Origin: a virus
Strand: one strand, 5' to 3'
IMG/VR virus record: IMGVR_UViG_3300009180_000112
Span: 1 to 35,739 of that record
Length of the DNA stretch: 35,739 bases
The translations under genes and the position numbers were made by a program. The stretch's first letter is position 1, and every line of letters starts with the position of its first letter. The notes under the pieces were generated by a model, which saw only the letters and a list, made by a program, of their open reading frames with translations, made no database searches and had not been told where the DNA came from. Positions 7,101-29,611 of the stretch are shown piece by piece.

Positions 7101-10100
7101 GGCTCAATATGATATTTTAAGATTTGATGAGAATAGAGGATATTTCATTCCACAACCTGAAACTTCAATAACTGAAACTGTAGGATTTAGTAATGTAAGT
7201 GATTTAACAATTGTACATAATTTGGATATTCGTTATCCTATGGTACAAATATATGCAACTGGTTCTGAAGACCAGATTATGGCTGGTACTATTAAATCAA
7301 TTGATAAAAACACAATACAAATTAAATTTGCTGGATTAACTTCTGGAAATGTTGTAATTGGTAGTGGTGGTTCATTAATCAATGGAACAATACCTGGTGA
7401 TAGAGTTATTGGTACTGTACTTTCATCATCATATGCAGTTAGAGCTGGTGTGGCGGAAAGTATAGTTGGATTTAATTCAGCATCATTAGCAGCTTTGGGT
7501 GATTTGGAAAACTTTGTAAGAAATTCACAAACATCTTCGATGGCTGTGTTTAGTGCTGTAAGTTCATCATATGCACTTACAGCATCATACGCATTAAATG
7601 CAGGACAAGGTGGTACTGATTTATTTATATACCAAACAAGTTCATTAGTAAAAGCACAAACTGGAAAAATTAACTTTACTGGTAGTGGTGTAAGTGTTAC
7701 TCCATCTGGTTCAGATGGTGTATTGGTAACTATATTAGGTGGAGGTGGTGGTGCTGGTTTTGGTGATTTACTTAGTTCACAAACTTCTTCAATGTTGGTT
7801 GGGACTGCTTCATTAGCATTCACCGCATCATACGCTTTATACGCTTTAAATGCGGAAGGAGTAAATACAGCATCATTCTTACAAGTAAATAAAGATAGTA
7901 ATATTAACGCCAATTTAACAATAAGTGGAAGCTTGGGAGTTAGTGGTAGTGTTGCATTTAGTAGTAGTATTTCACTTTATAGTTTACCTTCTGGTTCAGC
8001 ACAAGAAGTTGTTGTTTGGGACCCTATAACTAAAAAATTAGGATATAGAAACGTAGCAGCTGCAGTAGGTTCATCAGGTACTGGTGGTACTTCTGGGGGT
8101 GATGGTTCATCCGGCTCTTCTGGAAGTAGTGGTACAACAGGTTCAGCTGGTTCATCCGGCTCTTCTGGAAGTAGTGGTTCATCCGGCTCCTCTGGAAGTA
8201 GTGGTAGTAGCGGTACGTCTGGAATAAGTGGAACTAATGGAACGTCTGGGTCTTCTGGAAGTAGTGGAAGTAGTGGAAGTAGTGGTTCATCGGGAACTTC
8301 TGGCACATCTGGAAGTTCTGGGTCATCGGGAAGTTCTGGTTCATCGGGAACTTCTGGTTCAACTGGTTCTAGTGGTAGTAGCGGAAGTAGTGGGTCATCA
8401 GGAACTTCTGGTAGTAGTGGAACTAGTGGAAGTAGTGGTACAACTGGTTCGGATGGCACATCGGGAACTTCTGGAACTAGCGGCACTAGTGGTAGTGGTG
8501 GTTCATCGGGAACTTCTGGTAGTAGCGGTTCATCAGGAACTTCTGGAAGTAGCGGTTCATCTGGAAGTGGAGGTTCAACTGGGTCAGCAGGTACATCAGG
8601 AACTTCTGGTTCATCTGGCACATCAGGAACTTCTGGTTCATCGGGTTCATCTGGGTCATCAGGCACAACTGGTTCGGCTGGTACATCGGGTTCATCAGGA
8701 ACCTCTGGGTCATCTGGAAGTGGAGGTTCATCAGGTACTTCAGGAACTTCTGGTTCAACTGGTACGGCTGGCACATCGGGAACTTCTGGAACTGCTGGCA
8801 CATCAGGTTCATCAGCAACTGCTGGTACAGGTGGTACATCGGGTACGTCTGGCACCTCTGGTACAACTGGAACTGGTGGTACGAGTGGCTCTAGTGGTAT
8901 AGATGGTACTAGTGGCTCTAGTGGCTCGAGTGGTAGTAGTGGAGAGGCTGGTACATCAGGAACTTCTGGAAGTGGTGGTACATCAGGTACTTCTGGCACA
9001 GCTGGTACATCGGGAAGTTCTGGGTCATCTGGAAGTAGTGGTTCAACCGGCTCTGCTGGTACATCAGGTACTTCTGGTATTGATGGAAGTAGTGGTACAT
9101 CAGGAAGTTCTGGGTCATCTGGAAGTAGTGGAACAACAGGTTCATCGGGAAGTTCTGGTAGTAGCGGTACAAGTGGCACATCAGGAACTTCTGGCACATC
9201 GGGAACTTCTGGAAGTAGTGGTTCATCAGGAACAACTGGTTCATCAGGAACTTCTGGAAGTAGCGGTACTGCTGGTAGTAGTGGTGTTGATGGTACATCT
9301 GGCACAAGCGGTACATCAGGAACTTCTGGTACAAGTGGCACAACTGGTTCGGATGGAACTTCGGGAAGTAGTGGTACTGCTGGTTCATCTGGCACAAGCG
9401 GCACCGATGGAACTTCGGGAAGTAGTGGTTCAGCTGGCACAAGTGGTTCAGCTGGCACAAGTGGTTCAGCTGGTACAAGTGGTTCTACTGGAAGTGATGG
9501 AACTAGTGGTAGTAGTGGAACAGCAGGGTCTTCAGGAACTTCTGGTACTGATGGCACTAGTGGTAGTAGTGGAACAAATGGCTCAGCTGGTACAACTGGT
9601 TCATCGGGTACAACTGGTTCATCAGGAACTTCAGGTATAAATGGCACAAGTGGAAGTAGTGGAAGTAGTGGAAGTAGTGGAAGTACAGGTACAGATGGTA
9701 CGTCTGGCACAACAGGTACATCAGGCACAACTGGTTCATATGGTACTTCTGGCACAAGCGGTACAAATGGCACAAGCGGTACAAATGGTAGTAGTGGTTC
9801 TGCTGGAAGTAGTGGTAGTAGTGGAACTGATGGTTCTGCTGGTACAACTGGTTCGTATGGTACGAGTGGTAGTAGTGGTATAGATGGTTCATCTGGCACA
9901 AGCGGTACTAATGGAACTTCAGGAAGTAGTGGCACAGCAGGTACTTCTGGAAGTAGTGGTACAAGTGGTAGTAGCGGTACTTCTGGTTTAGATGGAACAT
10001 ATTTTGGAAGTAGTGGAAGTAGTGGAAGTAGTGGTAGTAGCGGAAGTACTGGAACTGATGGTACTTCAGGTTCTTCTGGTAGTAGTGGATTGAATGGTAC

Positions 10101-11628
10101 ATTCTTTGGTAGTAGTGGTTCATCTGGAACTGATGGCACATCGGGAACTTCTGGTACATCAGGTTCTTCTGGCACAACAGGTACAAGCGGTACTGATGGT
10201 AGTAGCGGTACTTCTGGTTTAGATGGAACATATTTTGGTAGTAGCGGTACATCAGGAACGGATGGCACAGGTGGTACATCTGGATTAGATGGGACGTCTG
10301 GTACTGCTGGGTCTTCTGGAAGTAGTGGTACAAGTGGTTTAGATGGAACATTCTTTGGTTCATCAGGAACTTCTGGTTCAACTGGTTCTGCTGGTTCAAG
10401 CGGACAAAGTGGAACATCTGGAGTAGATGGCACATCAGGAACTTCTGGTTCTTCTGGTTCGTCTGGTTTGGATGGAACTTATTTTGGTAGTGCTGGTACA
10501 TCAGGTTCAACTGGTACAGCAGGCACAAGTGGTAGTAGTGGATTTAATGGTACTAATGGCACAAGTGGTTCATCAGGAACTTCTGGAAGTAGTGGATTGA
10601 ATGGTACATTCTTTGGTACAAATGGTACTAGCGGCACAAGCGGCACAAATGGTACAACAGGTACTGCTGGTTCATCTGGGTCAACTGGTACGGATGGTAC
10701 ATCAGGAACTTCTGGAAGTAGTGGATTGAATGGTACATTCTTTGGTACAAACGGCACATCAGGAACTTCTGGTACAAATGGTACAACAGGTACTGCTGGT
10801 TCGTCTGGGTCAACTGGTACGGATGGTACTAGTGGTACAAGCGGAAATGGTACATCGGGAACTTCTGGGTTAAATGGAACTTATTTTGGTAGTAGTGGTT
10901 CTTCGGGAACTAATGGAGCTCCTGGTACAACTGGTGCAGATGGTTCATCCGGAACTTCTGGAACAAATGCTCCTGGCTATTCATCGGGAACTTCTGGAAC
11001 GGATGGCATTACGGGTTCAAGTGGTACATCGGGTTCATCAACGCCTGGTATAACCTCTGGTACTTCTGGTACACCGGGTATTAGTGGTACATCAGGTACT
11101 TCACCTGCTGGATTCACATCGGGTACATCAGGAGGAGCAGGTACTAATGGTACTTCTGGGTTCGCAACCGTTAGTGGTACAACTAATAATGGTGTATTAA
11201 CTTTAGAAGGCGCATCTCCAAACGTAAGAGCGGAAGATAATATGGTATTTGATGGTACTACATTGACTGTTACTGGTAATGTAGTAGTAACAACTTCGGT
11301 AGCAGCAACAACGTTTAGAGAAACATATAATGATTTAGGAACTGGAGCTAGTGCTACATTTGATTTATCAACGGCAAACAATTTTAGAAGACAATTTAAC
11401 GGAACTGCAACAATAACATTTAGTAATCCACCAGCATCAAACGCATTTGGATTTACGTTAGTAGCTGTTAATGCTGGTTCATACTCTATAACTTGGCCGG
11501 CAGCAGTAGATTGGGCAGGTGGAGTTCCTCCTGTATTAACATCGGTTGGTACGGATGTACTTACATTCTATACATTTAATGCTGGTTCATCATATTACGG
11601 ATTTATAGTAGGTAAAAATTTAAGTTAA
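1150..11628 (+). CDS. Giant collagen-like tail fibre / adhesin (3,492 aa) with two cupredoxin domains
   Basis: A very long virion surface fibre, presumably trimeric, for host attachment. Residues about 100-1,950 hold roughly 22 divergent beta-repeats of the form SGSVTASVxPxxGFxVxS...FTGSxxVSGS, linked by FxGDGxxLxNIP motifs known from phage fibres. Inserted are two cupredoxin-like domains (about 592-694 and 1218-1321) with complete type-1 copper ligand patterns. Residues about 1,960-2,300 are a Ser/Ala-rich connector. Residues 2307-3337 are collagen-like Gly-X-Y made almost only of G, S, T, A, D and N. From about 9991 this is broken regularly by GL(D/N)GT(Y/F)FG. The C-terminus carries the familiar GTTNNGVLTLEG...FDGTTLTVTG module and a head with TITFSNPPASNAFGFTLV and SITWPAAVDW, typical of phage fibre tips. 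No S74 chaperone is present. The start follows GGAAAGTAACGC and two ATATTTATA motifs. The family of parts is clear; the receptor is unknown. Confidence 0.85.
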   Translation: MAISNLLTGRVRVVSPKNVTLDRYQFLDLSQAEPNLGVPNFSASLSGSPAIVVSDDQGNRGFVRSLDLDNVTAKFTGSFTGSYTGSYFGDGRDLFNLPASKFIASGSSTASFINGGFNVNTSASIQGNLSVSNNLYVSKSIYADQLIVNVISSSVIYSSGSNKFGDEYSDRQEFTGSVLVSSSLIVNNATGSSFTGSFTGSFFGDGTNLFNLPKATRLATGSITASVGPEFGFKVESVASGSQFTGSLLVSGSVSASFFVGDGSKLFNIPALTATLIASGSVTASVDPAYGLRVVSPISGSEFTGSVDITGSLTITATSGALKLGSSSAYYGEGTYLRNIPRNALTEDALISTEIKSGSVTASVSPNFGFVVNSKASGSFFYGDVQATSGSVFSGSGAKLFDIPLNSLAQEAFRIVSASVTASVSPNFGFKVESKISGSQFTGSLFVTGNIEIPTGSGYFSGSGAGLSDIPRSALSFEINRIASGSVTASVDPGNGFVVFSPASGSRFTGSIFVTGSGIELSSGSFSGSGARLFDIPKSAISNLDLSKIFSGSYTASISPDYGFTVNTRSTISGSLVVSSSAEPLATSSIPTYYYVTNFGASAYNFDGAASGPNPNLTLVRGVTYQFEVNANGHPFYIKTAATSGVGSQYTTGVVNNGAQSGSVYFTPPSGSPDTLYYVCQFHQSMAATMSIVDTIYLQNRILFEGNTAISGGLYVRDYVRAREFTGSFSGSYIQGDGGGLFNIPRSAFTGDAFRIASGSVTASTTPDYGFRVETDRTASAYGSQFTGSVDISGSLRAFAVSASLISGSFFGDGSGLRNVPAEVSNRISSGSVTASVNPDGVGFKVESSQFGSRFTGSLFISGGGIFLETGSSYSGSGRYLYDIPRSALSFDISLIASGSFTASVSPTYGFKVESAQSGSRLTGSLFVSGGVYLGSGSHFSGSGRYLFDIPRSAISNLDTNAIFSGSVTASVAPNTGFIVTSIVSGSIFSGSINVSGSGKFINGVTASVFSGSGAGLTDIPFSALSQELFRIASGSVTASAIPDYGFRVESQASGSQITGSVRVTGSLFVTATSGALVLGSSSAYYGEGTYLRNIPRNALSEDALISTEIKSGSVTASVSPNFGFVVKSQASGSIFSGSIRVTGSVYVESGSSYYGDGSGLTNITLANLAIDSTKIFSGSATASISPDKGFTVNTYSTISGSFIVSSSAREVLTSSLFPVYNVTADGSSAYIISGSVQGSNPSITLVRGVKHTFNINAIGHPFYIKTVNSTGTGNTYSSGVTNNGAAVGTIIFTPPVDAPNTLYYNCQFHAGMAGTFNLVDSIILPAEIKFIGETKIIGNITASMYSGSGRGLFDIPQSALSSEVFRVASGSVTASVAPNYGFKVESQISGSQLTGSLQVSGSIYMYATSGALMLESSSNFFGEGRYLRNIPRSALTEDALISTEIKSGSVTASVAPDYGFKVITAFTSSLGESGAFTASIASQFTGSISVSGSVYINDNSGGLFIESSSFIYAEGTYLRRIPKSALTEDALLSSFIVSGSVTASVNPNDGFRVITPFTGSQIGSQFTGSVEVSGSIIAKNFFIGDGRYITNVQAAASPLIASGSATASVSSGDTFIVTTLATGSGLDFQIGTRITGSVDVSGSLQSQFFVGDGRYITNVVANAAPFIASGSATASVASGDTFVVKTAATGSQYGSRITGSIDVSGSIKAFSFIGDGSQLTNVQAAASPLIASGSATASVASGEKFLVITSPESGSFKSQFTSSVAISGSLTASLYYGDGGGLFNIPPDAIQNLELPKINSGSGVAIIDPTKLNVNVPITAARYDGDGSGLFNIPPDALQDLKLDRIISGSVQAQISPNKGLQIGTRTFVSGNLSVTGSLFVTGGNIVANSGSVFFGDGSGLTNINIANLSFETFLLKSGSVTASISPDKGFVVNTSASIWGDLYVNNKFRANSITASNYIFSPLISSSFLGTYNFQGNGPTASAQYDILRFDENRGYFIPQPETSITETVGFSNVSDLTIVHNLDIRYPMVQIYATGSEDQIMAGTIKSIDKNTIQIKFAGLTSGNVVIGSGGSLINGTIPGDRVIGTVLSSSYAVRAGVAESIVGFNSASLAALGDLENFVRNSQTSSMAVFSAVSSSYALTASYALNAGQGGTDLFIYQTSSLVKAQTGKINFTGSGVSVTPSGSDGVLVTILGGGGGAGFGDLLSSQTSSMLVGTASLAFTASYALYALNAEGVNTASFLQVNKDSNINANLTISGSLGVSGSVAFSSSISLYSLPSGSAQEVVVWDPITKKLGYRNVAAAVGSSGTGGTSGGDGSSGSSGSSGTTGSAGSSGSSGSSGSSGSSGSSGSSGTSGISGTNGTSGSSGSSGSSGSSGSSGTSGTSGSSGSSGSSGSSGTSGSTGSSGSSGSSGSSGTSGSSGTSGSSGTTGSDGTSGTSGTSGTSGSGGSSGTSGSSGSSGTSGSSGSSGSGGSTGSAGTSGTSGSSGTSGTSGSSGSSGSSGTTGSAGTSGSSGTSGSSGSGGSSGTSGTSGSTGTAGTSGTSGTAGTSGSSATAGTGGTSGTSGTSGTTGTGGTSGSSGIDGTSGSSGSSGSSGEAGTSGTSGSGGTSGTSGTAGTSGSSGSSGSSGSTGSAGTSGTSGIDGSSGTSGSSGSSGSSGTTGSSGSSGSSGTSGTSGTSGTSGTSGSSGSSGTTGSSGTSGSSGTAGSSGVDGTSGTSGTSGTSGTSGTTGSDGTSGSSGTAGSSGTSGTDGTSGSSGSAGTSGSAGTSGSAGTSGSTGSDGTSGSSGTAGSSGTSGTDGTSGSSGTNGSAGTTGSSGTTGSSGTSGINGTSGSSGSSGSSGSTGTDGTSGTTGTSGTTGSYGTSGTSGTNGTSGTNGSSGSAGSSGSSGTDGSAGTTGSYGTSGSSGIDGSSGTSGTNGTSGSSGTAGTSGSSGTSGSSGTSGLDGTYFGSSGSSGSSGSSGSTGTDGTSGSSGSSGLNGTFFGSSGSSGTDGTSGTSGTSGSSGTTGTSGTDGSSGTSGLDGTYFGSSGTSGTDGTGGTSGLDGTSGTAGSSGSSGTSGLDGTFFGSSGTSGSTGSAGSSGQSGTSGVDGTSGTSGSSGSSGLDGTYFGSAGTSGSTGTAGTSGSSGFNGTNGTSGSSGTSGSSGLNGTFFGTNGTSGTSGTNGTTGTAGSSGSTGTDGTSGTSGSSGLNGTFFGTNGTSGTSGTNGTTGTAGSSGSTGTDGTSGTSGNGTSGTSGLNGTYFGSSGSSGTNGAPGTTGADGSSGTSGTNAPGYSSGTSGTDGITGSSGTSGSSTPGITSGTSGTPGISGTSGTSPAGFTSGTSGGAGTNGTSGFATVSGTTNNGVLTLEGASPNVRAEDNMVFDGTTLTVTGNVVVTTSVAATTFRETYNDLGTGASATFDLSTANNFRRQFNGTATITFSNPPASNAFGFTLVAVNAGSYSITWPAAVDWAGGVPPVLTSVGTDVLTFYTFNAGSSYYGFIVGKNLS
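2923..3231 (+). other. Cupredoxin-like (type-1 copper) domain 1 inside the fibre
   Basis: Residues about 592-694 show a beta-sandwich pattern with LVRGVTYQFEVNANGHPFYI and LYYVCQFHQSMAATM. The candidate ligands are H634, C680, H683 and M686. C-x2-H-x2-M is the amicyanin/pseudoazurin-type C-terminal ligand loop, with the first His 46 residues upstream. Whether copper is bound is inference. The domain is bounded on both sides by ordinary fibre repeats. Confidence 0.7.
4801..5112 (+). other. Cupredoxin-like (type-1 copper) domain 2 inside the fibre
   Basis: A paralogue of the first domain at residues about 1218-1321, with LVRGVKHTFNINAIGHPFYI and LYYNCQFHAGMAGTF. Ligands H1261, C1307, H1310 and M1313 are conserved with the same 46-residue His-to-Cys spacing. 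Both domains follow a similar STISGS...VSSSA lead-in, so domain and linker were probably duplicated together. Confidence 0.7.
8068..11160 (+). repeat. Collagen-like Gly-X-Y repeat region (residues 2307-3337)
   Basis: About 1,030 residues of GTSG/GSSG-type triplets. Proline is absent until the last roughly 70 residues (GAPGTTG, NAPGYSS, STPGITS, GTPGISG). Base composition is visibly more GC-rich than the flanks because of Gly and Thr codons. The repeat leaves long open frames in other frames and on the other strand; those are shadows. Eight GL(D/N)GT(Y/F)FG interruptions occur between 9991 and 10890. Confidence 0.9.
10576..10833 (+). repeat. Near-identical 129-bp tandem duplication within the collagen region
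   Basis: Unit A (10576-10704) and unit B (10705-10833) both start GGAACTTCTGGAAGTAGTGG, code GLNGTFFGTNGTSG, and end with the ACTGGTACGGATGG segment. They differ at only a handful of positions. 129 bp equals 43 residues, the dominant spacing of the interruptions. Confidence 0.85.
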
Positions 11629-13672: not shown

Positions 13673-16600
13673 ATGGAATATTTAGGAGGTAACCCTAATG
13701 GTTTAAATCAATTAAGTTCAAGCTTAATTGCGTTGTATGTGAGTGGGAGCAAGATAGCTAACTTCTCATCGGAATCGGTGAATGTGGTTGGTAATTTTAC
13801 TGCCTCTGGTATTCAAACTAATTTAATTGTTAGTCAATCCAATTCTCCAATATCAATAAGAGGTAATGTTCAAATAACTGGTTCGTTAAATATTTCATCA
13901 TCAATAACTGCATCTTTATTTAGAGGAGATGGTAGTGGATTATTTAATATTAGTGCAACAGCAATTGGAGATTTGAACCAATTAAAATCAGGTTCGGCAA
14001 TAGCTAATATATCTCCAAACAAAGGATTAATTGTAAATACTGGAGTAAGTGTTGATAATTTTTTAATTGTAAGTGGTAGTGGTATTTTTAAAGGAGATAT
14101 TAGTGTAGCTGGAAAAATAACATCAACTGAAATATTTGCAACATATATTTCTTCTTCTGTAATATATTCATCGGGCTCAAATAAATTTGGAGATTCTCAA
14201 ACTGATAAGCAAGAATTTACTGGTAGTGTGGCTATGAGTGGTTCTCTTTTTATAGATGGGTTGAAAGCTGATAGTTCAAATGAAGTATTAGTAATAAATG
14301 CTACAACAGGTAAAATAGGAACTAAAACAGCTGCAGCAACTTCTGGAACATCTGGTACATCAGGTACAACTGGGTCTTCAGGAACTTCTGGTAGTGGTGG
14401 TTCATCGGGTACAACTGGTTCGGATGGCACATCTGGCACATCCGGTACATCGGGAACACGAGGCACTTCAGGAAGTGGAGGTACATCAGGAACTTCTGGG
14501 TCATCTGGAAGTGGTGGTACATCAGGAACTTCTGGGTCTACTGGTTCTGCTGGTACATCAGGAACTTCTGGTAGTAGCGGCAGTAGTGGAAGTGGTGGTA
14601 CATCAGGAACAAGAGGCACATCTGGAAGTAGCGGAAGTGGTGGTACATCAGGAACTGATGGTTCATCAGGAAGTGGAGGCACATCGGGAACTTCTGGAAG
14701 TGGTGGTACATCTGGCACAAATGGTACTGCTGGTAGTGGAGGTTCATCGGGAACTTCTGGTTCAACTGGTTCGGCCGGTACAACTGGGTCTTCAGGTACA
14801 ACTGGTTCATCGGGTACAACTGGTTCTAGTGGTACAAGTGGACAGAGTGGAAGTTCTGGGTCATCTGGTTCTAATGGTTCTTCTGGTAGAGATGGTACAT
14901 CTGGTAGCGGAGGTAGTAGTGGTACTGCTGGTAGCGGTGGTATTACTGGAGCAGGTGGTTCTGCTGGTACATCGGGAAGTAGTGGAAGTAGTGGGACTAG
15001 TGGGTCATCGGGTTCAACTGGTTCAGCTGGTACATCGGGAAGTTCTGGTTCAACGGGTTCTAGTGGTATAACTGGAGCAGGTGGAACGGCAGGAACTTCT
15101 GGAAGTGGAGGCACATCAGGAACTTCTGGTTCAACTGGGTCAAGCGGTACGTCTGGTACGGCAGGGACTTCTGGTTCAACTGGGTCAACGGGTTCAGCGG
15201 GTACATCAGGAACTTCTGGTTCAACTGGTTCGGCTGGTACAAGTGGCAGTAGTGGTAGTGGTGGTACAACAGGAACTTCTGGTTCGGCTGGTACGTCTGG
15301 CACAACAGGAACTTCTGGTAGTGGTGGTACTAGTGGACAAAGTGGTGGTATCAAATATAATTTTTCAACAACAATTACTGATTCTGACCCTGGTAATGGA
15401 ATAGTACAATATAATAATGGTACTATTGCTTCGGTAACTTTTTTATACATTGATATATTAGACCAAAGTGGTAATAATCAATTAGCATGGTTTAATAGTT
15501 GGGATGATAGTAACACACCAAATAATAGAGGTAATGTTATTTTATCATCAAGAGATAGTGGAACAATAAATAATATATTCACAATTACTGGAGCAGTAAC
15601 TAACGCATCTGGATATTTTAAAATACCTGTAATATATGTAAGTGGTACACTACCAACTAATACTGCACAATTAGTAATTGATTTTGCAAGAACTGGAGAT
15701 AGTGGTACATCAGGAACTTCTGGTTCTGCTGGCACAACAGGTACTTCTGGTTCAGCTGGCACATCGGGAACTTCTGGTTCAGCTGGCACATCGGGAACTT
15801 CTGGTTCTGCTGGCACGGCTGGAAGTGGTGGTACATCAGGAACTTCTGGTTCGGCTGGCACATCAGGTACAACAGGTACTTCTGGTAGCGGAGGTAGTAG
15901 TGGAACATCTGGTAGCGGAGGTAGTAGTGGTTCTGCTGGTAGTGGGGGTAGTAGTGGTACTGCTGGGAGTAGTGGTTCAGCTGGAACATCTGGTTCAGCA
16001 GGAACTGCTGGAAGTGGAGGCTCATCAGGAACTCGTGGTACATCGGGAAGTGGAGGGTCATCAGGAACTTCTGGTACTTCTGGTTCGGCTGGTAGTGGTG
16101 GTACATCAGGAACTGCTGGTACATCTGGCAGTGGAGGTACATCAGGAACTGCTGGTACATCAGGATTATTATCATTAAGTGGTACAACTGATAATGGTGT
16201 AATTACATTAAATGGAACTGCACCAAATGCAACTGTTGAAAGTAATTTACTATTTGATGGTAGTACGTTGACAGTAAATGGAGCAGCGGTAATTACTGGT
16301 AACTTAGTTGTTAATGGTACAACTACAACTGTAAATTCAAATACAATTAATTTAGGTGATAATATTATTACTTTAAATGGAGATTATACAGGTTCAGTAG
16401 CACCAACTGAAAATGCTGGTATTGAAATTAAAAGAGGTAACGCTGCAACTGTATCATTCTATTGGGATGAAACAAATGATAGATGGACTTTAGATAATAA
16501 TACATATGTAAACGGAAATATTCAGGGAACTGGTAATATTGTTATATCAGGTACAATTGATACGGGTCAAGGAGCTACTGAGGTTTATTTAATGAACCAA

Positions 16601-19600
16601 AATGTAAGAACTACGGATAACGTTACCCATGCAACAATTACAGCAACAAATGGTGTAAGTGTAACTGGTGGAAACCTTTCGGTAAGTGCTGGTAATATAA
16701 CATTAAGTGGTACAATAGATACTGGACAGGGAGCAACTGAAGTTTATTTAATGAACCAAAATGTTCGTACAACCGATGCAGTAACATTCTCTACAGTTGA
16801 TACTGGACAAGGTGCAAATGAATTGTACGCAATGAACCAAAACGTAAGAACTACGGATGCGGTTACATTCTCTACTGTTGATACTGGGCAAGGAGCAAAT
16901 GAATTGTACGCAATGAATCAAAATGTTCGTACAACTGATTCTCCTACCTTTGCTGGATTAAACATAACTGGTACGGTAACATTTAGTACTGCATTTATTC
17001 AGAATAATCTTAAACAATATGTTATAAATGGATTATCCGCATCAGCAACTCAATCTAGAAGATATGAAATAGCTAAAATTGCTATTGATTATAATGATTG
17101 GAATAGTGTTGGTGTATTTGAAGTTGAGCTAATGGAAACTTATTACGCTCAAGGCTTAAAAAAGAAATATAATGTATGGTATGGTTATGTAAGTAACTAT
17201 GGTGTATATTTAGTAGAATATCAAGGAGTTGGGTCTAATAACTTTATGGTTAATTTAAGTTCCGAAACCGCAGGAAGTGGTGACCAAAGATATATTTCAG
17301 TTTACGTTGATGTTGCATATTATTCAACTGTAGATGTTGTAATTCGTACAAATAGAAGTATAACAGCATCAAATCCTCCTGGTATCGGTTCTACTTGGAT
17401 TAATACTTCACCATCTGGAACTAACGTAACATTTACAGCAGATTCAATAGTATATCCAACATCAAATCAAACTGGTATAGCAGTACCAATTATGTATGAT
17501 AGTAATGATATAAGTTACTATGTAAACCCAGCTTCATCAACTAGATTAAATCAATTATCAGTTGGTGGTGGGGCATTTGATGTTAGTGGTATTAATATTA
17601 ACGGAGATGCTGGTATAGTTGGTTCTAATTATTTATATTTTGGACATACAAATGGTTCAATAGGTAGTTGGCAGACTAGAACATATTCTACTGGTGGAAG
17701 ACAAATTTGGAATTCAAACGGATTTGAATTTAATAGAACTGGATATGGTGGTAACATCATATTATATGCCGATTCATCGGAAAGAATTGGAATTAATACA
17801 TCAGATTTTTCATATACTTCATCAGATAACGCTTCTGTAATAAGCACTATTACAAACAATAGATTATTCGTAAATGGTTCAATTCAATTATTAGGAAACC
17901 AAGACGCAATCGTATTTGGTAGAGGAGCTGCATCATTCTTAAGAGATGAAGAATTAGGATTTGGCTGGGGTGGTGGTTGGTACATGATTGATAGTACTTG
18001 GATTCGTTCTAGAGGTTCTAAGAATGTTTATGTTGATGCCTATGTTAGAGCACAAGGTTCATTTAGAGTAGGTTCTGAATATTCAATATGGGCACCTTAT
18101 GGTACTTATAGTTCTTACATAAGTAGAATTGCATATTTCTCATTTGACTGGAATGCTAACTACGATTCATATACAAATCATGGTATAGCATCAACTGATT
18201 TAAATGGTAGTTTTAGTGATTCAATGAGTATTAACTCATTCAATGATATTAACTTAAGAATAGATAGTAATAATAATAACGCAGATTCTTATGTAAGATT
18301 CCATAATAATAGTTCTGTAAGTAATCAATTTGCATATATTGGATTTGATGGTACAAACTATGTAAACTATTTTAGTGGAATTCTTTACGCAACTTCGCAA
18401 GCTAGGTCACCTATATTTTATGATAACGATAATACGGCATTCTATATAGACCCAAATAATACCGATGTATCATTCAGAATGGCAGGTGGCATTATTTCTA
18501 CTTCTTATATGAAGATTGGTATTGAAGATGCTGGTTGGGATTGTTATATGCAAATTACGGATGATAATCCAACGCTTGACGGATTTGGATATGGTGGTGA
18601 ATTTTATTTCTATGGAGATAAATCATCAAGTTCATCTATACTTTATATGGGTGGTATTGCAGCAGCTAACCAAGTACGTTCTGCAAATCAAATGCGTTCA
18701 CCTATTTATTATGATTATAATGATACTGGATATTATGTAGACCCTAATAGTACTACAAATATTCGTTATTTAAAAGTTAATACAACTGGTACTTCATCTG
18801 GAACTAGAGCACTAACTATTAAGCAAGACGGATTTGGTGAATATAACTATGGTTCTTATCCTGGTGCTTGGACATCGGCATTACAAATCCAAAATAATGA
18901 TAATACCAAAATGATTTGGATATCACCATTGGATAGTTCAAACCACGCTAGATTCCATGTAAATGGAGCAACTGCTGGATTGCACTTTAACGTTGGTGGT
19001 GGTATAAATGCAAATGGTACTACATCTTGGGAAATTTATAGTTCTTATGTTTATAGTGGATACCCTGTATATGGTACTATATTCTATGATGCAAATGATA
19101 GTGGATATTATGTAAATCCAAATGGTACATCACGTATAGGTGGTATAGAAATATCGCCAGCTAACGATTCAACTCAAGGTATTTACTTTAGAGGTGTAAC
19201 TGGTGATAACCCTGGTTCATATAATCACACTGCGTTGGTTGAAAGGTTATGGGGAACTGCTGACCAATCTGAATTATTATTATTCAAAGGTAATGATGTT
19301 GATACCGCAACTATACATGATAGAATTAGATTAGGTTCTACTGGTAGAATTGTATTCCAATCTATGGCAGGCACTTATGATTTGAGTTCTTACATATCAG
19401 CAACTGGTACTGGTAACATCGAAGGTAGTGGATATTTCTATGGTAGTGAATTCCATGTACCTGGTTCAATTTATACACCAATAGTTTATGATAGAAATAA
19501 CTCAGCATATTTTGTAGACCCAGATGGACGTTCTCGTTTATCATCAATGGATTATGGTAATAGTTCATATTATTTGGCAGGTGGTGATTGGGGTTATCGT

Positions 19601-21646
19601 CATAATACTCCATATGGTTGGATTCAATTTGGACCTGCAAATACATCACATGCCCACATCTATACTGACCGTTCAAACTTTTATTTTAATGTAAATGAAC
19701 TATATGGTAATGGGTATCATGTAGCAATGCATAATTTGTGGTGGGGAAATATGTACTTAGGAAGTGGTGGTGATTTCTATGCAACCATTTTTTATGATAC
19801 AAATAATTCTGCATATTATTGTGACCCAGCTTCAACAAATAGATTAAACTTTGTAAACGCTAACAACATTTACATCAATGCAGGATATATGTTATATTCT
19901 GATACTGGTGGATGGACTGGTGAATATAATAAGATTCAATGGCATAGTTCTCATATGTACTTCCAAAAGATGAATGAGGGTTATTGGATATTCAGAAGAC
20001 CTAGTGGTAGTGAACCGCATCAATTTGCAGTAGATGGTAATCATTACACTGCTTATTTAGGTTGGTTATCTAACTGGGCTAACCAAAACGTAAGAACCGA
20101 TGCTTCGCCAACTTTCTATGATTTATATGTAAACGGATGGTTTAGAAATAATACTTCTGGACATGGTCTTTATAACCAATCTCGTTCAATGCACTGGTAT
20201 TCTAATAATGGATATTGGAAATCAGCAGGTGGTGGATATGGATATGGTGGTATTGTAATGTACAATAACTACGAATCTGATTTAAGAGGATATGCTGGAT
20301 ATTGGGATGGTAGTGGTTTTGGTATGTTGAACTCTTCTGGTAACTGGCAGATTCGTATTGAGTATGGTAATGCACATATGGAATTGTATCGTGTTACTTA
20401 TATGGATGATGCTAGAGCATACATCTACTATGATAGACAAGATACTGGATACTATATAGACCCTGCCGGTCAACGTTCACAATGGGTAGGTTTAACTGAT
20501 AGAGGTAAAGGTAACACTGGTTTAAGTGGTAAATCAAATTATAGAAGACCTCAAGATTATACTGGTGATAGAAACTATTGGACAGGTTCTGAAGGTTGGG
20601 GTACAACTGACTTTAACTGGATGATGGATTGGGGTTCTGGTTTCAATGATTCTTGGTCTAACCCTGGTAACCAACCTCCTGGTACATCGCATTGGGAAAC
20701 TGTACAAGCTTTCCACTACTCTTGGACTTATGGTGGTGGTTATGGGTGGCAATTGACCGGTGGACCTGTTGATAGAATGTATTTCAGAAATATTTGGTCT
20801 TCTCCTTCTGGTTGGAAAGCAATGGTTGACTCTAATAATAGAGGTGAATATTGTATTCCTACTTATGACTACAACCACTATTCAAGAGTTTACTTTACTT
20901 ACAATAGAGGATATTACGCAACACAAACCGATTCGGCAATGTTGCAACCATATTCAACTGGTAATAATGGTGCGTTCATGTCATTCCACAAAGGTGGTTA
21001 CTATGCATTGAACTTAGGTTTGGATGGTGATAACGTTGTAAGATGGGGTGGCTGGTCTTCTAGATGGCAGAGATACTATTTGAATGATGATACTTTGGGT
21101 ACTCCTTATGTATTACGTTCAAACTTTGATAACTATGGTGGTGGTGGTATTTGGGTATCGGATGATGGTGACCTTTGTGACTTGAATGATGGTTACTTAG
21201 CATTAAGAGCTTCATATGGTTTAAGAATTCATACTGGTAATAGAGGTGGTGGTGCTACGATTGCATTAAGATATGATGGACAGATTATAGCATCAAACAA
21301 CATTATTGCATATGGTTCACCTTCGGATAGAAGATTGAAAGAAAATTTAAAACCTTTAGAAAATTCATTAGAAAAAGTAATGAAAATGAGAGGTGTTGAA
21401 TATGATTGGAGAGAAGGTACTGATGAATACGAAACAACTGGACTTAGACATGATATAGGTTTTATAGCGCAAGAAGTTGAAGATATAGTTCCTGATTTAG
21501 TTAGAGCTGGCGAAGATGGTTATTTAGCAATTAGAGATAGAGGTATTCCAGCATTATTATTAGAGGCTATTAAGGAATTAAAAGTTGAGTTGGATGCATC
21601 TAAAAATGAAATAAAAGATTTGAAGAAAAAATTAGGTTTGGATTAA
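13673..21646 (+). CDS. Second giant tail fibre (2,657 aa) with collagen-like regions and C-terminal S74 intramolecular chaperone
   Basis: Residues 1-220 are beta-repeats with RGDGSGLFNI and an IYSSGSNKFGD module shared with the first fibre. Residues 225-559 are collagen-like GTSG repeats. Residues 560-675 are a globular insert (from IKYNFSTTITDSDPGNG, ending VIDFARTG) of a kind common between phage collagen segments. Residues 675-831 are a second collagen segment. Next come GTTDNGVITLNG and four DTGQGAxExYxMNQNVRTTD units. From about residue 1273 there are seven YDxNxxxYYxDPxxxxR units separated by variable, aromatic-rich domains. A Trp-rich domain at about 2300-2395 (WETVQAFHYSW..GYGWQLTGGP) looks like a binding head. 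The end is a Peptidase_S74 chaperone (SDRRLKENLKPL) and a coiled coil. The S74 domain drives trimerisation and cleaves itself off. The protein probably serves as host-recognition fibre. Confidence 0.88.
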   Translation: MEYLGGNPNGLNQLSSSLIALYVSGSKIANFSSESVNVVGNFTASGIQTNLIVSQSNSPISIRGNVQITGSLNISSSITASLFRGDGSGLFNISATAIGDLNQLKSGSAIANISPNKGLIVNTGVSVDNFLIVSGSGIFKGDISVAGKITSTEIFATYISSSVIYSSGSNKFGDSQTDKQEFTGSVAMSGSLFIDGLKADSSNEVLVINATTGKIGTKTAAATSGTSGTSGTTGSSGTSGSGGSSGTTGSDGTSGTSGTSGTRGTSGSGGTSGTSGSSGSGGTSGTSGSTGSAGTSGTSGSSGSSGSGGTSGTRGTSGSSGSGGTSGTDGSSGSGGTSGTSGSGGTSGTNGTAGSGGSSGTSGSTGSAGTTGSSGTTGSSGTTGSSGTSGQSGSSGSSGSNGSSGRDGTSGSGGSSGTAGSGGITGAGGSAGTSGSSGSSGTSGSSGSTGSAGTSGSSGSTGSSGITGAGGTAGTSGSGGTSGTSGSTGSSGTSGTAGTSGSTGSTGSAGTSGTSGSTGSAGTSGSSGSGGTTGTSGSAGTSGTTGTSGSGGTSGQSGGIKYNFSTTITDSDPGNGIVQYNNGTIASVTFLYIDILDQSGNNQLAWFNSWDDSNTPNNRGNVILSSRDSGTINNIFTITGAVTNASGYFKIPVIYVSGTLPTNTAQLVIDFARTGDSGTSGTSGSAGTTGTSGSAGTSGTSGSAGTSGTSGSAGTAGSGGTSGTSGSAGTSGTTGTSGSGGSSGTSGSGGSSGSAGSGGSSGTAGSSGSAGTSGSAGTAGSGGSSGTRGTSGSGGSSGTSGTSGSAGSGGTSGTAGTSGSGGTSGTAGTSGLLSLSGTTDNGVITLNGTAPNATVESNLLFDGSTLTVNGAAVITGNLVVNGTTTTVNSNTINLGDNIITLNGDYTGSVAPTENAGIEIKRGNAATVSFYWDETNDRWTLDNNTYVNGNIQGTGNIVISGTIDTGQGATEVYLMNQNVRTTDNVTHATITATNGVSVTGGNLSVSAGNITLSGTIDTGQGATEVYLMNQNVRTTDAVTFSTVDTGQGANELYAMNQNVRTTDAVTFSTVDTGQGANELYAMNQNVRTTDSPTFAGLNITGTVTFSTAFIQNNLKQYVINGLSASATQSRRYEIAKIAIDYNDWNSVGVFEVELMETYYAQGLKKKYNVWYGYVSNYGVYLVEYQGVGSNNFMVNLSSETAGSGDQRYISVYVDVAYYSTVDVVIRTNRSITASNPPGIGSTWINTSPSGTNVTFTADSIVYPTSNQTGIAVPIMYDSNDISYYVNPASSTRLNQLSVGGGAFDVSGININGDAGIVGSNYLYFGHTNGSIGSWQTRTYSTGGRQIWNSNGFEFNRTGYGGNIILYADSSERIGINTSDFSYTSSDNASVISTITNNRLFVNGSIQLLGNQDAIVFGRGAASFLRDEELGFGWGGGWYMIDSTWIRSRGSKNVYVDAYVRAQGSFRVGSEYSIWAPYGTYSSYISRIAYFSFDWNANYDSYTNHGIASTDLNGSFSDSMSINSFNDINLRIDSNNNNADSYVRFHNNSSVSNQFAYIGFDGTNYVNYFSGILYATSQARSPIFYDNDNTAFYIDPNNTDVSFRMAGGIISTSYMKIGIEDAGWDCYMQITDDNPTLDGFGYGGEFYFYGDKSSSSSILYMGGIAAANQVRSANQMRSPIYYDYNDTGYYVDPNSTTNIRYLKVNTTGTSSGTRALTIKQDGFGEYNYGSYPGAWTSALQIQNNDNTKMIWISPLDSSNHARFHVNGATAGLHFNVGGGINANGTTSWEIYSSYVYSGYPVYGTIFYDANDSGYYVNPNGTSRIGGIEISPANDSTQGIYFRGVTGDNPGSYNHTALVERLWGTADQSELLLFKGNDVDTATIHDRIRLGSTGRIVFQSMAGTYDLSSYISATGTGNIEGSGYFYGSEFHVPGSIYTPIVYDRNNSAYFVDPDGRSRLSSMDYGNSSYYLAGGDWGYRHNTPYGWIQFGPANTSHAHIYTDRSNFYFNVNELYGNGYHVAMHNLWWGNMYLGSGGDFYATIFYDTNNSAYYCDPASTNRLNFVNANNIYINAGYMLYSDTGGWTGEYNKIQWHSSHMYFQKMNEGYWIFRRPSGSEPHQFAVDGNHYTAYLGWLSNWANQNVRTDASPTFYDLYVNGWFRNNTSGHGLYNQSRSMHWYSNNGYWKSAGGGYGYGGIVMYNNYESDLRGYAGYWDGSGFGMLNSSGNWQIRIEYGNAHMELYRVTYMDDARAYIYYDRQDTGYYIDPAGQRSQWVGLTDRGKGNTGLSGKSNYRRPQDYTGDRNYWTGSEGWGTTDFNWMMDWGSGFNDSWSNPGNQPPGTSHWETVQAFHYSWTYGGGYGWQLTGGPVDRMYFRNIWSSPSGWKAMVDSNNRGEYCIPTYDYNHYSRVYFTYNRGYYATQTDSAMLQPYSTGNNGAFMSFHKGGYYALNLGLDGDNVVRWGGWSSRWQRYYLNDDTLGTPYVLRSNFDNYGGGGIWVSDDGDLCDLNDGYLALRASYGLRIHTGNRGGGATIALRYDGQIIASNNIIAYGSPSDRRLKENLKPLENSLEKVMKMRGVEYDWREGTDEYETTGLRHDIGFIAQEVEDIVPDLVRAGEDGYLAIRDRGIPALLLEAIKELKVELDASKNEIKDLKKKLGLD
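14345..15349 (+). repeat. Collagen-like repeat A of the second fibre (residues 225-559)
   Basis: Gly-X-Y triplets of G, S, T, A, with occasional Arg (GTRGTSG, GRDG), Asn, Asp, Ile and Gln. Compared with the first fibre it is richer in GSGG and carries charged Arg. There are no prolines and no GL(D/N)GT(Y/F)FG interruptions. Confidence 0.88.
15695..16165 (+). repeat. Collagen-like repeat B of the second fibre (residues 675-831)
   Basis: Continuation of Gly-X-Y triplets after a globular insert of about 115 residues, with frequent GSAGTSG units. It ends at the GLLSLSGTTDNG module. Confidence 0.88.
16718..16960 (+). repeat. Three tandem 81-bp repeats coding DTGQGAxExYxMNQNVRTTD
   Basis: Unit starts at 16718, 16799 and 16880 (GATACTGG...) are exactly 81 bp apart. 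A fourth, more distant copy starts at 16559. Each codes a 27-residue unit ending NQNVRTTDxxTFxxx, a motif common in T4-like phage fibres. Confidence 0.85.
21323..21643 (+). other. Peptidase_S74 intramolecular chaperone domain (residues 2551-2657)
   Basis: GSPSDRRLKENLKPL marks the domain start. By family knowledge the Ser of S-D-x-R-L-K (S2551) with the Lys (K2556) performs auto-cleavage just before the Ser once the fibre trimer has folded. DIGFIAQEVEDIVPDLV and the helical tail EAIKELKVELDASKNEIKDL are typical. The predicted released fragment is about 107 residues. Confidence 0.88.
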
Positions 21647-25342: not shown

Positions 25343-25840
25343 ATGGCAGATATTCTATCCTTCGATAAGATGTTCTATACGAACTTCGAACCAAAAATGA
25401 AAAATCGCTACATCATGGAGCTGACTGATACGTCAATCCCATCGTTTGTAGTGAGTGCAGCAAATAGACCAACAATCCAATTTGAGACTGTAAAATTAGA
25501 CCACATCAACGTTTATAGAAAGTTGAAAGGTAAAGGTGAGTGGCAAGATTTGGAGATTACTCTGTATGACCCAATCGTACCATCAGCAGCTCAAGCGGTA
25601 ATGGAGTGGGTTCGTTTATCACACGAATCAATCACTGGTAGAGATGGATATGCAGAAATGTATAAAAAAGATATCGATTTTTACTTATTAGGACCTGTGG
25701 GTGATAAGGTTGAACAATGGAAATTGAAAGGTGCATTTATCTCTCAAGCAAACTTCGGAGATTTAGCATATAGTACAACTAACGAACCTGTAACAATTAC
25801 ATTAACATTAACTTACGATTACGCAATCTTAGAATTCTAA
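25343..25840 (+). CDS. gp19: Tail tube protein (T4 gp19 family), 165 aa
   Basis: Polymerises into hexameric rings forming the inner tail tube through which DNA passes. Length is near that of T4 gp19 (163). Typical features are the start ILSFDKMFYTNFEPKMKNRY, SFVVSAANRPTIQFETVKLD, the WQDLEITLYDPIVPSAAQAV segment with WVRLSHESITGRDGYAEMYK, and the C-terminal strand TTNEPVTITLTLTYDYAILE. It sits between the sheath and chaperone genes as in other myoviruses. Codon use is enriched in C-ending codons as in the sheath, fitting its copy number. It is flanked by an ATATTTATA motif and a strong terminator. Confidence 0.95.
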   Translation: MADILSFDKMFYTNFEPKMKNRYIMELTDTSIPSFVVSAANRPTIQFETVKLDHINVYRKLKGKGEWQDLEITLYDPIVPSAAQAVMEWVRLSHESITGRDGYAEMYKKDIDFYLLGPVGDKVEQWKLKGAFISQANFGDLAYSTTNEPVTITLTLTYDYAILEF

Positions 25841-25949: not shown

Positions 25950-26711
25950 ATGAACGAAAAGGAATACGATTTTCCAACCGAAGTGTTGGACTTACCATCT
26001 GGCGGTAAGATATATCCAAAAGAAAGCCCATTATCATCTGGTAGAATTACAATTAAATTGATGACAGCAAAAGAAGAAGATATTCTTTCTTCTACAAACC
26101 TTATTAAAAAGGGTGTTGTATTAGATAAATTGTTTGAATCTATTATAGTTGATAAGGTAAACCCAAATGATATTATAATTGGTGATAAAAATGCTATTAT
26201 ATTGGCAACTAGAGTATTAGGTTATGGACCTGATTATGAATTTCAATTTTATTCATCAAAGAAAAATGATTATGTTAGTGTTAAAATGGATTTGACACAA
26301 ATTAAAACAAAAGAAATTGATTTATCTTTGTTCAATAATAAAAATGAATTTGAATACACCACTAAATACGGTAAGAACAAAATAGTATTTAAAATTCTTA
26401 CACATGGTGATGAGCATGAAATAGATAGAGAAGTAGATGCACTTAAGAAAATAAACAAAGATGTATCATCTGATATTACAACTCGTTTGAGATATATGAT
26501 TAAATCGGTTGATGGTAACGCTGAAGTTGGTCATATTACTAGATTTGTTAATAATATGAGAGCTATGGATAGTAGAGCATTTAGAGAATATGTTAAGAAT
26601 ATATCACCAGACATGAATATGACTTATACTCATACACATGAGGATGGTGAGGTGGAGGAGGCGCCTATTTCTCTTGGAGTAAACTTTTTTTGGCCTAGCA
26701 CCGGGTCATAG
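25950..26711 (+). CDS. Tail assembly chaperone, short (zero-frame) product, gp26-like, 253 aa
   Basis: The zero-frame product of a frameshift gene. DLPSGGKIYPKESPLSSGRI, IKLMTAKEEDILSSTNLIKK, the stretch from GVVLDKLFESIIVDKVNP through IIGDKNAIILATRVLGYGP, and the acidic middle (HGDEHEIDREVDALKKINK) match the T4 baseplate gp26 family found across T4-like phages. Position between tube and tape measure is where tailed phages encode the chaperone pair that coats the tape measure. The zero-frame end NFFWPSTGS follows a T7 run and stops at TAG 26709-26711. The ATG follows CAAAGTAACGTT, similar to the leader of the giant fibre. The overlapping long product is listed separately. Confidence 0.8.
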   Translation: MNEKEYDFPTEVLDLPSGGKIYPKESPLSSGRITIKLMTAKEEDILSSTNLIKKGVVLDKLFESIIVDKVNPNDIIIGDKNAIILATRVLGYGPDYEFQFYSSKKNDYVSVKMDLTQIKTKEIDLSLFNNKNEFEYTTKYGKNKIVFKILTHGDEHEIDREVDALKKINKDVSSDITTRLRYMIKSVDGNAEVGHITRFVNNMRAMDSRAFREYVKNISPDMNMTYTHTHEDGEVEEAPISLGVNFFWPSTGS

Positions 26712-26910
26712 TATCCAATTACATACGCAGATTTTTGATATGGTTCACTATGGTAATGGATTTACAGTTATGGAATTGTATCAAATGCCAACAAGATTGA
26801 GAATATTTTATTATAATAAGTTGGCTGAAGCAAAAAAGAAAGAAAACGAACAAATAGAAAAATCAAATAAAGCATCATCTGCGGCATCAAAAGTTAGGGT
26901 TAATCGATAA
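25950..26910 (+). CDS. Tail assembly chaperone, long product by +1 (or -2) ribosomal frameshift, about 319 aa
   Basis: The first 247 codons are read in frame to the TTT at 26688-26690. A +1 shift then continues at GGC 26692 for 72 more codons to TAA 26908-26910. The added sequence is clearly protein-like: GLAPGHSIQLHTQIFDMVHY, GNGFTVMELYQMPTRLRIFY, then a charged helix (NKLAEAKKKENEQIEK). The MP-x-RL-R-x-FY pattern with a basic/acidic helix fits the gpT-like half of tail assembly chaperones (T4 gp51 region by position). The +1 frame is closed by TAA at 26680-26682, so the shift must happen between 26683 and 26711, exactly where the T7 run lies. This long product would bind tape measure and recruit tube subunits. 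Frame logic is seen directly; function is by analogy. Confidence 0.75.
26685..26691 (+). promoter_or_regulatory. Probable programmed frameshift site (T7 run)
   Basis: Zero frame reads AAC TTT TTT TGG. The Phe-tRNA on the second TTT can slide one base forward and still pair with TTT, or two bases back and still pair with TTT; both lead to the downstream frame. The following zero-frame codon TGG may be slow. A -1 shift would hit TAG at once, so it is excluded. Confidence 0.65.
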
Positions 26911-26962: not shown

Positions 26963-27205
26963 ATGGCAAAGTACAAAATAAAGAAAGAAAACCTAAATGA
27001 ATTTTGGGGATTATTTGGTAAAAAGAAACCACAATCATTACAACAAGTGATAGATAGTGATCCTGTTTTGAATAAATTGGATGATGAATTGTATGATATT
27101 AATAGAAATTATATTCCAAAATTACAAAAAATAAAAGATAATGATGCTGAAAGTTGGAAACAACTTGTTAAATACGGCTTGGTAGACCCTAAAGATTTCA
27201 AATAA
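26963..27205 (+). CDS. Small conserved hypothetical protein upstream of the tape measure (80 aa)
   Basis: A basic, mostly helical protein: MAKYKIKKENLNEFWGLFGK, KKPQSLQQVIDSDPVLNKLD, then YIPKLQKIKDNDAESWKQLV. Small proteins with an EFWG-F-GKKK start are common just before tape-measure genes in T4-like aquatic phages, as far as I recall. Function is unknown; position suggests tail assembly. It is first in its transcript, 15 bp upstream of the tape-measure gene. Confidence 0.6.
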   Translation: MAKYKIKKENLNEFWGLFGKKKPQSLQQVIDSDPVLNKLDDELYDINRNYIPKLQKIKDNDAESWKQLVKYGLVDPKDFK

Positions 27206-27220
27206 TTTTCATTAAAATAG

Positions 27221-29611
27221 ATGGCAACCAATAATAAACTTACTCCAGAAGAACAACAGGAACTGAACGGACTTTTGTCGGAAGAATCCCGTATTAGGGA
27301 AAGAATTGCCGAACAAAATAAAAAAGCAGCAACTTCAAGTGGTAGAGAGAAGCAAAATTTAGAAGATTTAATTGAGCAAGAAGAAATAAGACTCAAATTA
27401 TCAAATGACAGAATTTCTAAATTAAAAAAAATACAAGAAGCTGCCGAATATGAAGTTAATGCATATCAATCATTATCCTCTTTGGGTAAGGGTATTAAAA
27501 AACAAATAGATGGTAAGGTAACAGCTACTAGCTCCTTAACAAATGTTACAAATCATTTAGTTAAGTTAAAACAGCAAGAAGTTGAAGCTTCGGATGAAGA
27601 AGCTTCTGTATTGGCGAAAAGAAGGGAAACCTTGGAAGGAATTGTACAAAAAACAGTTGATATGGCTAAGGAAGTTGATTCCCACCATTCTCATAGTTTA
27701 AGTGCAACTCAAAAATTAGAAAAATTTCAAAAAAGTATAGCACATCTAACGGCCGAAGAAAAAGAAGAAGCGCAAAAATTGTATCTAATAACTACTAAAT
27801 TAGAAAAAAAGGCAGAAAGATTAAAAGCATTACATGAAATGCAACATGAAGTTTTACACCATATGCCAGAACCAATAATGAAAGCAGCTGGATTTGCTGG
27901 AGACATGATAAAGAATTTTGGTAAAGGTGTATTACTTGCCGGTCTTTTAACCGCCGCTTTAATGGCTGGTGTGCATGCATTTTTAGAAATGGATGAGGCA
28001 TCTGCAAAGTATAAAGAGAATACGGGCTTTACTAATAACATGACCAAAGAAATTGACAAAACAGTACATCATACTGCTATGGAATATAGAAAGATGGGTG
28101 TTACTGTGGCAGATGCATATGAGGCACAAAACCAATTGGCAAATTCTCAAAGTGATATGTTCCACTTTGCACAAGGTACTACCGATGCGTTATCTCTTAT
28201 GAAAGCAACAATGGGTATTACCGCAGTTGATTCAGCAAAAGTACAGGCATCCTTTGAACAAATCGGTGGATTATCTGAAGCCACTGCTGCTAATACTCAA
28301 ATGATGGCAGCTAAATTAGCAGAAGGAGTTGGTGTATCTGCTTCTGAAATGTTTGCCGATATGTCAAAAAGTGCTGGAGTTCTTTCTAAGCACATGAAAG
28401 GTAATGTACAACTATTCATACAATCTGCTGTAAAGGCTAAAATGTTAGGTACTTCATTAGAAGATACGGCAAAAATAGCTGATAAATTACTTAACTTTGA
28501 ATCTGGTATTGAAGATGAATTAGTAGCAGCAACTATGGTTGGTGGTAAATTCAATCTTAGTAGAGCTAGAGCATTAGCATATGAAGGTAAGATTGTTGAA
28601 GCAAATGAAGCAACTTTAGATGCAATTGAACAAAGTGGAGATTTTTCAAAGCAAGATTATTTCACAAAAATGCAATTGGCTAAAGCAGCCGGTATGGAAG
28701 TGGAAGAAATTGAAAAACAAATAGGTATCAGAGATAAGTTGGGAAAAATGAGTGGTGATACTTTAAAAAATGCAAAAGCACTTATAGAGTCTGGAGTTGA
28801 TATCAGTCAAATGGATGATGAGAAATTAAAAAAACAAGCAGAACAATTTTCACATCAACAAAAGATTACTAGTCAAATGGATGAATTTAAAAATTCTATT
28901 GCCGGTTCGGTTGAACAAATTGGTGGAAGAATGTTACCTGCGTTTCAAGCTATGATGCCTATTTTAGTTGCTATGGCTGATATATTTGGATTAATTGGTG
29001 ATGGTATAAAATTAATGCAAGAAAACCAAGCTGCATTTATAATAGGTACTATTTTATTGGGAACATTAACAGCTGCACTTATGATAGCTAAATTTAGACA
29101 ATTGGCTTTGGAAAAGAAAATAAGAAATGCACAAGCAGAACAATTGGGAGTTGGTTTGGCCAACGCTTCAACTGGTATTATGGGTTCGTTAGCTAAAGTT
29201 CCTTTTGGATTGGGTATTCCAGTAGCATTAGGTCTTATTGCTGGTTTAGCTGCATTGATATATAGTTTTACATCTAAAAAAGGAGATGACGTTGTTTCGG
29301 AAGGTGGATATGGAAGTAGAACTTTAATGGGACCTGAAGGAGCAATTCAATTAAATAATAAAGATACAGTAATAGCTGGTACTGATTTATTTTCAAACCA
29401 ATCTAAAGGACAATCACAATCCGCACCCGCAGTATCCGCAATTGCTTCATCTAACAATAATATGATTGGAGCATTGATTAGTGAATTTAGAGGTGTTAGG
29501 TCGGATATGGCAAGTGGTAAGATTGGAGTTTATATGGATAACGATAAAGTTACGGCAAATGTAACCAATACTATGGATACTAGTACTAGAAATAAATTCG
29601 CATTACAATAA
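27221..29611 (+). CDS. Tail tape measure protein (796 aa)
   Basis: Sets tail length, and in other phages leaves the tail during infection. Residues 1-210 are charged, Gln/Lys/Glu-rich helices with coiled-coil character. There are three hydrophobic stretches at about 233-255 (GKGVLLAGLLTAALMAGVHA), 604-626 (AAFIIGTILLGTLTAALMIA) and 662-684 (FGLGIPVALGLIAGLAALIY). Between them is a long helical body with Met/Ala-rich segments. The C-terminal motif GPEGAIQLNNKDTVIAGTDL (about 704-724) is the PEG-x-I-x-L-N-x-K-D box seen at tape-measure ends in many myoviruses. It is located right after the frameshifted chaperone. The ATG gives the first natural helix. Confidence 0.87.
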   Translation: MATNNKLTPEEQQELNGLLSEESRIRERIAEQNKKAATSSGREKQNLEDLIEQEEIRLKLSNDRISKLKKIQEAAEYEVNAYQSLSSLGKGIKKQIDGKVTATSSLTNVTNHLVKLKQQEVEASDEEASVLAKRRETLEGIVQKTVDMAKEVDSHHSHSLSATQKLEKFQKSIAHLTAEEKEEAQKLYLITTKLEKKAERLKALHEMQHEVLHHMPEPIMKAAGFAGDMIKNFGKGVLLAGLLTAALMAGVHAFLEMDEASAKYKENTGFTNNMTKEIDKTVHHTAMEYRKMGVTVADAYEAQNQLANSQSDMFHFAQGTTDALSLMKATMGITAVDSAKVQASFEQIGGLSEATAANTQMMAAKLAEGVGVSASEMFADMSKSAGVLSKHMKGNVQLFIQSAVKAKMLGTSLEDTAKIADKLLNFESGIEDELVAATMVGGKFNLSRARALAYEGKIVEANEATLDAIEQSGDFSKQDYFTKMQLAKAAGMEVEEIEKQIGIRDKLGKMSGDTLKNAKALIESGVDISQMDDEKLKKQAEQFSHQQKITSQMDEFKNSIAGSVEQIGGRMLPAFQAMMPILVAMADIFGLIGDGIKLMQENQAAFIIGTILLGTLTAALMIAKFRQLALEKKIRNAQAEQLGVGLANASTGIMGSLAKVPFGLGIPVALGLIAGLAALIYSFTSKKGDDVVSEGGYGSRTLMGPEGAIQLNNKDTVIAGTDLFSNQSKGQSQSAPAVSAIASSNNNMIGALISEFRGVRSDMASGKIGVYMDNDKVTANVTNTMDTSTRNKFALQ

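Follow-up and report, generated by a model that had tools for sequence, protein, structure and literature searches.

A conserved site for probable +1 frameshifting in the gp26-like tail assembly chaperone genes of a large group of T4-related phages

Sequence comparison suggests that a large group of phages related to T4 appears to shift into the +1 frame at two phenylalanine codons of its tail assembly chaperone gene, that cousins of this group slip backward at the same codons, and that T4 has two genes. Very probably, +1 programmed ribosomal frameshifting yields a short and a long form of the chaperone from one gene. We analyzed a viral DNA of 35,739 nucleotides, hereafter the window (IMG/VR record IMGVR_UViG_3300009180_000112). 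On its plus strand, a gp26-like open reading frame (ORF) of 253 aa at positions 25950..26711 (PF12322, PHROG 150), corresponding to the short form (TAC-N), ends in ...GVNFFWPSTGS* at a TAG (26709-26711) located 20 bases past a run of seven T residues (T7; 26685..26691, plus strand), which is read TTT TTT T(GG) in the zero frame. The +1 frame is bounded upstream by a TAA at 26680-26682 and is open from 26683 to 26910, over 75 codons and a stop. Beyond the slip site it encodes GLAPGHS...KVRVNR* (26692..26910, plus strand), the predicted C domain of the long form (TAC-NC), which the last zero-frame codons of the short form, WPSTGS* (26691..26711, plus strand), overlap. Open runs of at least 187 nt arose by chance in 0.15% of draws from randomised sequence. 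The first-pass annotation had described the stop at 26711, a protein-like +1 frame at 26683-26910 overlapping the zero frame at the T7, and a -1 frame blocked by an early TAG; each was found again, the last at 26696-26698, and the frameshifted extension is confirmed as a real feature of the window.

Relatives were gathered from IMG/VR contigs and named phages, giving 271 loci including the window, 268 of them with a complete zero frame. The sequence [TTT/TTC][TTT/CTT]T, in which YTT_T follows a Phe codon, occupied the site in 257 of the 268 loci. The list includes repeated contigs, so that 206 of the 257 were distinct, falling into 30 clusters at 70% identity; the loci share ancestry and their counts are not independent events. 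The commonest sites were TTT TTT TGG (161 loci), TTT TTT TAC (38), TTT CTT TGG (38) and TTC TTT TGG (14), and the rare ones TTT TTT TAT (3) and TTC TTT TAC, TTT CTT TAC and TTC CTT TGG (1 each). The other 11 loci were TTT CTA TGG (4), TTT CTA TTC (L084), TTT TTT CAC (two records of SP-15), TTT TTT AGT (LIS04), TTC TTT CGT (GXN1), TTC TTG TAT (L181) and L088. Within the window's cluster, TTT TTT TGG was invariant (68/68 distinct sequences). The +1 frame was open for at least 150 nt beyond the zero-frame stop in 250 of the 255 loci with an uncut extension, and was retained in the isolates Flavobacterium immuto, Microcystis Mel-JY01, RM378, SP-15, LIS04 and GXN1. Among the five exceptions, L008 and L049 break later, and L181, L186 and L088 lack a +1 extension; in each of these three the C part is in the -1 frame, and an ATG coincides with the stop or closely follows it. 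The immuto-group relatives L181 (2650-3045) and L186 have lost the +1 extension, and their C domain looks like a separate gene. The locus thus has the G/GT-type combination of a C-terminal extension in another frame and a conserved slip site.

The extension carries a coding signature. Past the zero-frame stop, the N/S ratio among 62 sequences of the window's cluster was 0.85 in the +1 frame versus 12.1 and 10.3 in the others, and variability over the extension was 0.44 at third versus 0.08 at second codon positions. Where the two frames overlap, over 18 nt, +1 was again the constrained frame (N/S of 1.64, versus 7.76 in the zero frame), indicating that its reading would begin with the codon that immediately follows the slip. 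By these substitution patterns, the extension is evolving as a protein in the +1 frame only. Together with the offset kept among the relatives, this signature strongly supports a programmed frameshift in the gp26-like tail assembly chaperone, as proposed at first pass, and one that is conserved.

The +1 direction is best supported because it alone fits the variant sites described below. Re-pairing of the P-site tRNA in the +1 frame is possible at the YTT_T sites and, at codon 1, at the TTT CTA loci; in the four TTT CTA TGG loci and L084 it is limited to UUU>UUC at codon 1. The variants TTC TTT T and TTT CTA have no long T run, and allow re-pairing after +1 but not after -2. In the window, slips at codon 1 and at codon 2 are indistinguishable. 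The -1 frame is not generally open past the zero-frame stop (median, 32 nt), and where a tandem -1 slip (X XXY YYZ) calls for T before TTT TT(C/T), the window has C TTT TTT and a TAG at 26696. Across the 206 distinct sequences the base before the Phe pair was C in 128, G in 61, A in 12 and T in 5, all five belonging to the TTC-first cluster, whereas from codon usage T would be expected in 108. The sequence T TTT TTT, which would permit a -1 tandem slip, therefore seems to be avoided, although selection against long T runs on other grounds would leave an identical pattern. Counting against +1, the waiting codon is UGG, UAC or UAU, neither a stop nor established as rare. Downstream RNA structure showed no excess over a control region (mean z of -0.68 and -0.98, versus -0.65) in every third sequence (69 of 206).

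The same final frame would be reached by -2 ribosomal frameshifting, a direction reported for phage Mu, if the tRNA on the second Phe codon slipped back two bases to give FFF-GLAPG; the first-pass annotation had accordingly written +1 (or -2). The -2 triplet is TTT in 162 and TTC in 30 of the 206 distinct sequences, and the distant upstream GGAGG described below would be expected to favour backward over forward slips. In 14 of the 206, however, the shifted tRNA would face TCT or TCC, where re-pairing is impossible, and it would re-pair poorly at TTT CTA and in GXN1, yet the frame is kept in each case; GGAGG is, moreover, present in all 14 TTC-first sequences. We consider -2 unlikely and favour +1. 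Translation of the C domain as a separate gene, by an internal start or re-initiation, would agree with the way annotators have split several phages and with the ATG just past the stop in L181 and L186. It is very unlikely, given that the earliest ATG in the window's extension, at 26740, would leave 16 conserved upstream codons untranslated, that the TAA at 26680 shuts the +1 frame upstream, and that conservation begins at the first codon following the slip. Transcriptional slippage on the T7, producing mRNAs one U short, is highly improbable: 162 of the 206 distinct sequences do contain a seven-T homopolymer, but the longest T run is just 3 or 4 in 44 of them, and the same frame is kept. Finally, a sequencing error in the homopolymer of seven, or a pseudogene, can safely be dismissed because 250 of 255 uncut extensions share the +1 offset, which is identical across 30 clusters and named isolates, and none of the relatives examined has the six Ts that would give one continuous frame, the alternative raised at first pass.

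In DSL-LC02 (a cyanophage), phiAS5, Atu_ph07 and PA5oct, the C domain lies in the -1 frame after NNT TTT TTC. A scan with the cyanophage protein returned 80 loci (81 with L282 itself), of which 80 had a complete zero frame; T preceded the Phe pair in 80/80 of these and the pair was TTT TTC in 79/80. The cyanophage C domain resembled both the tail of T4 gp51 (P 4.2e-12) and the window-type C domain (P 4.8e-6), whereas the direct resemblance between the window-type extension and the gp51 tail was weak (P 0.026 and 0.055). Linked through the cyanophage C domain, the extension is probably related to the gp51 tail. In T4, gp26 (8.8e-64) as well as gp51 (3.9e-52, over residues 1-201 of 249) belongs to PF12322, and gp26 would therefore be like G and gp51 like GT, the long form. 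The earlier suggestion that a gp26-type N-terminus joined to a gp51-like C-terminus makes the two T4 genes equivalent to a G/GT pair thus holds for the equivalence and, by way of the cyanophages, probably for the C-terminal resemblance; it has to be amended in that gp51 is not the C part alone, since it matches PF12322 too. By hhalign, A1 showed no direct homology with T4 gp26 or gp51, though Pfam and PHROG link them. In an unrooted tree of 38 rows, T4 joined phiAS5 and the cyanophages (100/100) and the -1 label needed two changes; branches are long, and we are unsure of exact placements.

Upstream of the window's slip site lies a Shine-Dalgarno (SD)-like element, GGAGGAGG (26654..26661, plus strand), in which GGAGG ends 26 nt and again 23 nt upstream of the first codon of the slip site. 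Across the +1 branch, the distance from the end of GGAGG to codon 1 was 23, 25 or 26 nt, in two codon phases, for 154 of 206 distinct sequences; 200 synonymous redraws averaged 13.6 such sequences and never exceeded 23. It occurred in the majority of members in 19 of 30 clusters and was absent from 11. An L042-type subclade of the window's cluster (e.g. L041, L047 and L053) has GAG GTA in place of the exact GGAGG, its slip site being unchanged. In the -1 branch, this distance was 11 nt for 52 of 70 sequences (synonymous null mean, 5.4; maximum, 12), a spacing that resembles dnaX-type -1 stimulation. We know of no stimulator that acts from 23-26 nt, and the +1-branch element lies well outside the range from which +1 stimulation is known, which counts against that direction. 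For a close, prfB-like SD, codons -5 to -1 were no better than the synonymous null. Pairing potential was no more than weak at 17 of the 19 start sites examined in the window, as would be expected if the host were of Bacteroidota type. Flavobacterium johnsoniae, a rare SD user, has an SD-containing +1 site in prfB, according to PMC8710568. Conceivably, although we hold this as a tentative idea rather than a likely one, direction is switched at the same two Phe codons through the preceding base (T for -1, not T for +1), the following base and the distance of GGAGG (11 nt for -1, 23-26 nt for +1), and GGAGG so placed in the mostly SD-less phages of the +1 branch might be a new kind of +1 stimulator. 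Pairing of GGAGG with the C-rich sequence after the slip site, judged by eye, was dropped as a candidate because its 3′ part would be hidden beneath any ribosome positioned at the site.

Family and position are those of a tail assembly chaperone. The 25950..26711 ORF matches PF12322 T4_baseplate (gp26/gp51) at E 2.9e-6 (27.6 bits, versus a curated cut-off of 24.5) and PHROG 150 at E 1.2e-7; P0001 by itself had no convincing match in Pfam or PHROGs. Gene order in the window is sheath, tube, gp26-like chaperone ORF, 80 aa ORF and probable tape measure, which places the chaperone gene between tail tube and tape measure as in G/GT-type systems. The upstream gp19-like tail tube protein (25343..25840, plus strand) matches PHROG 4542 (E 7.8e-27) and, slightly below cut-off, PF06841 (E 3e-6), and the probable tape measure protein of 796 aa downstream (27221..29611, plus strand) matches the protein annotated as tape measure in Flavobacterium phage immuto (BLASTP E 4e-11). 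The 80 aa ORF between chaperone and tape measure (26963-27205) had no convincing family match in Pfam or PHROG. The short form was modelled with AlphaFold2 (mean pLDDT 89, pTM 0.85) and the model compared with 729 chains by VIA-align; the HK97 tail assembly chaperone 2ob9 came first (Z 5.0; 91 aligned, 4.0 A) and YqbN 3klu, presumably a chaperone relative, second (Z 4.9; 85 aligned, 3.7 A), the next chain having Z 2.9. The Z values are middling, and this modelled likeness is only suggestive; Foldseek of the model against pdb gave no match with E below 0.001. Elsewhere, the window contains very long ORFs at 1150-11628 (3492 aa) and 13673-21646 (2657 aa).

Whereas site, frame, coding extension, position and family are conserved features read from the sequences themselves, we infer that the shift occurs, how efficient it is and what the two forms do. 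The majority of ribosomes would end at 26711 and make the short form. In a fraction, tRNA-Phe on UUU in UUU UUU U(GG) would slip +1 and re-pair with UUU in the +1 frame, and the slipped ribosomes would make a long form of 319 aa, ...NFF-GLAPG...KVRVNR. By analogy with lambda G/GT, the short form would form a coat on the tape measure protein, and it would be through its C domain that the long form recruits tail tube subunits.

As in lambda G/GT, one gene between tube and tape measure would give a short and a long form by frameshifting near its 3′ end; the direction is -1 in lambda and most others, but +1 at YUU_U in the window-type branch. Like T4 gp26/gp51, the window type belongs to PF12322 and has a related C domain, but T4 has two separate paralogous genes in place of one frameshifted gene. 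The gp26-like genes of cyanophages and outer Straboviridae (the -1 branch) share the homologous Phe-Phe codons and the C domain, and differ in having T TTT TTC, the -1 frame and GGAGG at 11 nt instead of 23-26 nt. The YUU_U slip is shared with prfB (release factor 2), whose CUU_U is found at 40 of the 257 loci; prfB, however, has a UGA stop as its waiting codon and an SD-like element nearby, whereas the window type has UGG or UAY in the A site and no close SD beyond amino-acid demand. A poly-T site in a myovirus tail chaperone also appears in PMC12846349, as GTTTTT in Vandenendeviridae/Andersonviridae, but there the direction is -1 and the phage group another. The type is thus a known kind, that of frameshifted tail chaperones with +1 among the reported directions: Atkins et al. 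(2016, PMC5009743) give -1, -2 and +1 for tailed phages, with T4 as the exception. On the short and long chaperone genes of T4-like phages, PRFect refers to Vladimirov et al. 2022, so the T4 gp26/gp51 equivalence seems to be in print already. Among literature titles and abstracts we found none on +1 frameshifting in gp26-like genes; Vladimirov et al. 2022 may overlap, including for -1 in some T4-like phages. New here are how large and how consistent the +1 branch is, how cleanly the two branches differ in sequence, the displaced GGAGG and the -1 sister branch sharing the Phe codons.

In the literature, T4 stands as the exception to frameshifting of tail chaperones; together, a +1 branch, a -1 sister and the two-gene T4 form a natural series for studying how frameshift direction evolves, and the two fixed distances of GGAGG allow the part played by rRNA pairing in setting direction to be tested. 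Annotation can also be corrected, as the extension is often missed or split off as a hypothetical protein. Small annotated hypothetical genes in L082 (4851-4961), L083 (4755-4991) and L086 (4809-4928) end exactly at the end of the extension, as do those in L280 (2388-2510), L282 (2244-2366) and L283 (2262-2384); all six are probably misannotated fragments of the long form.
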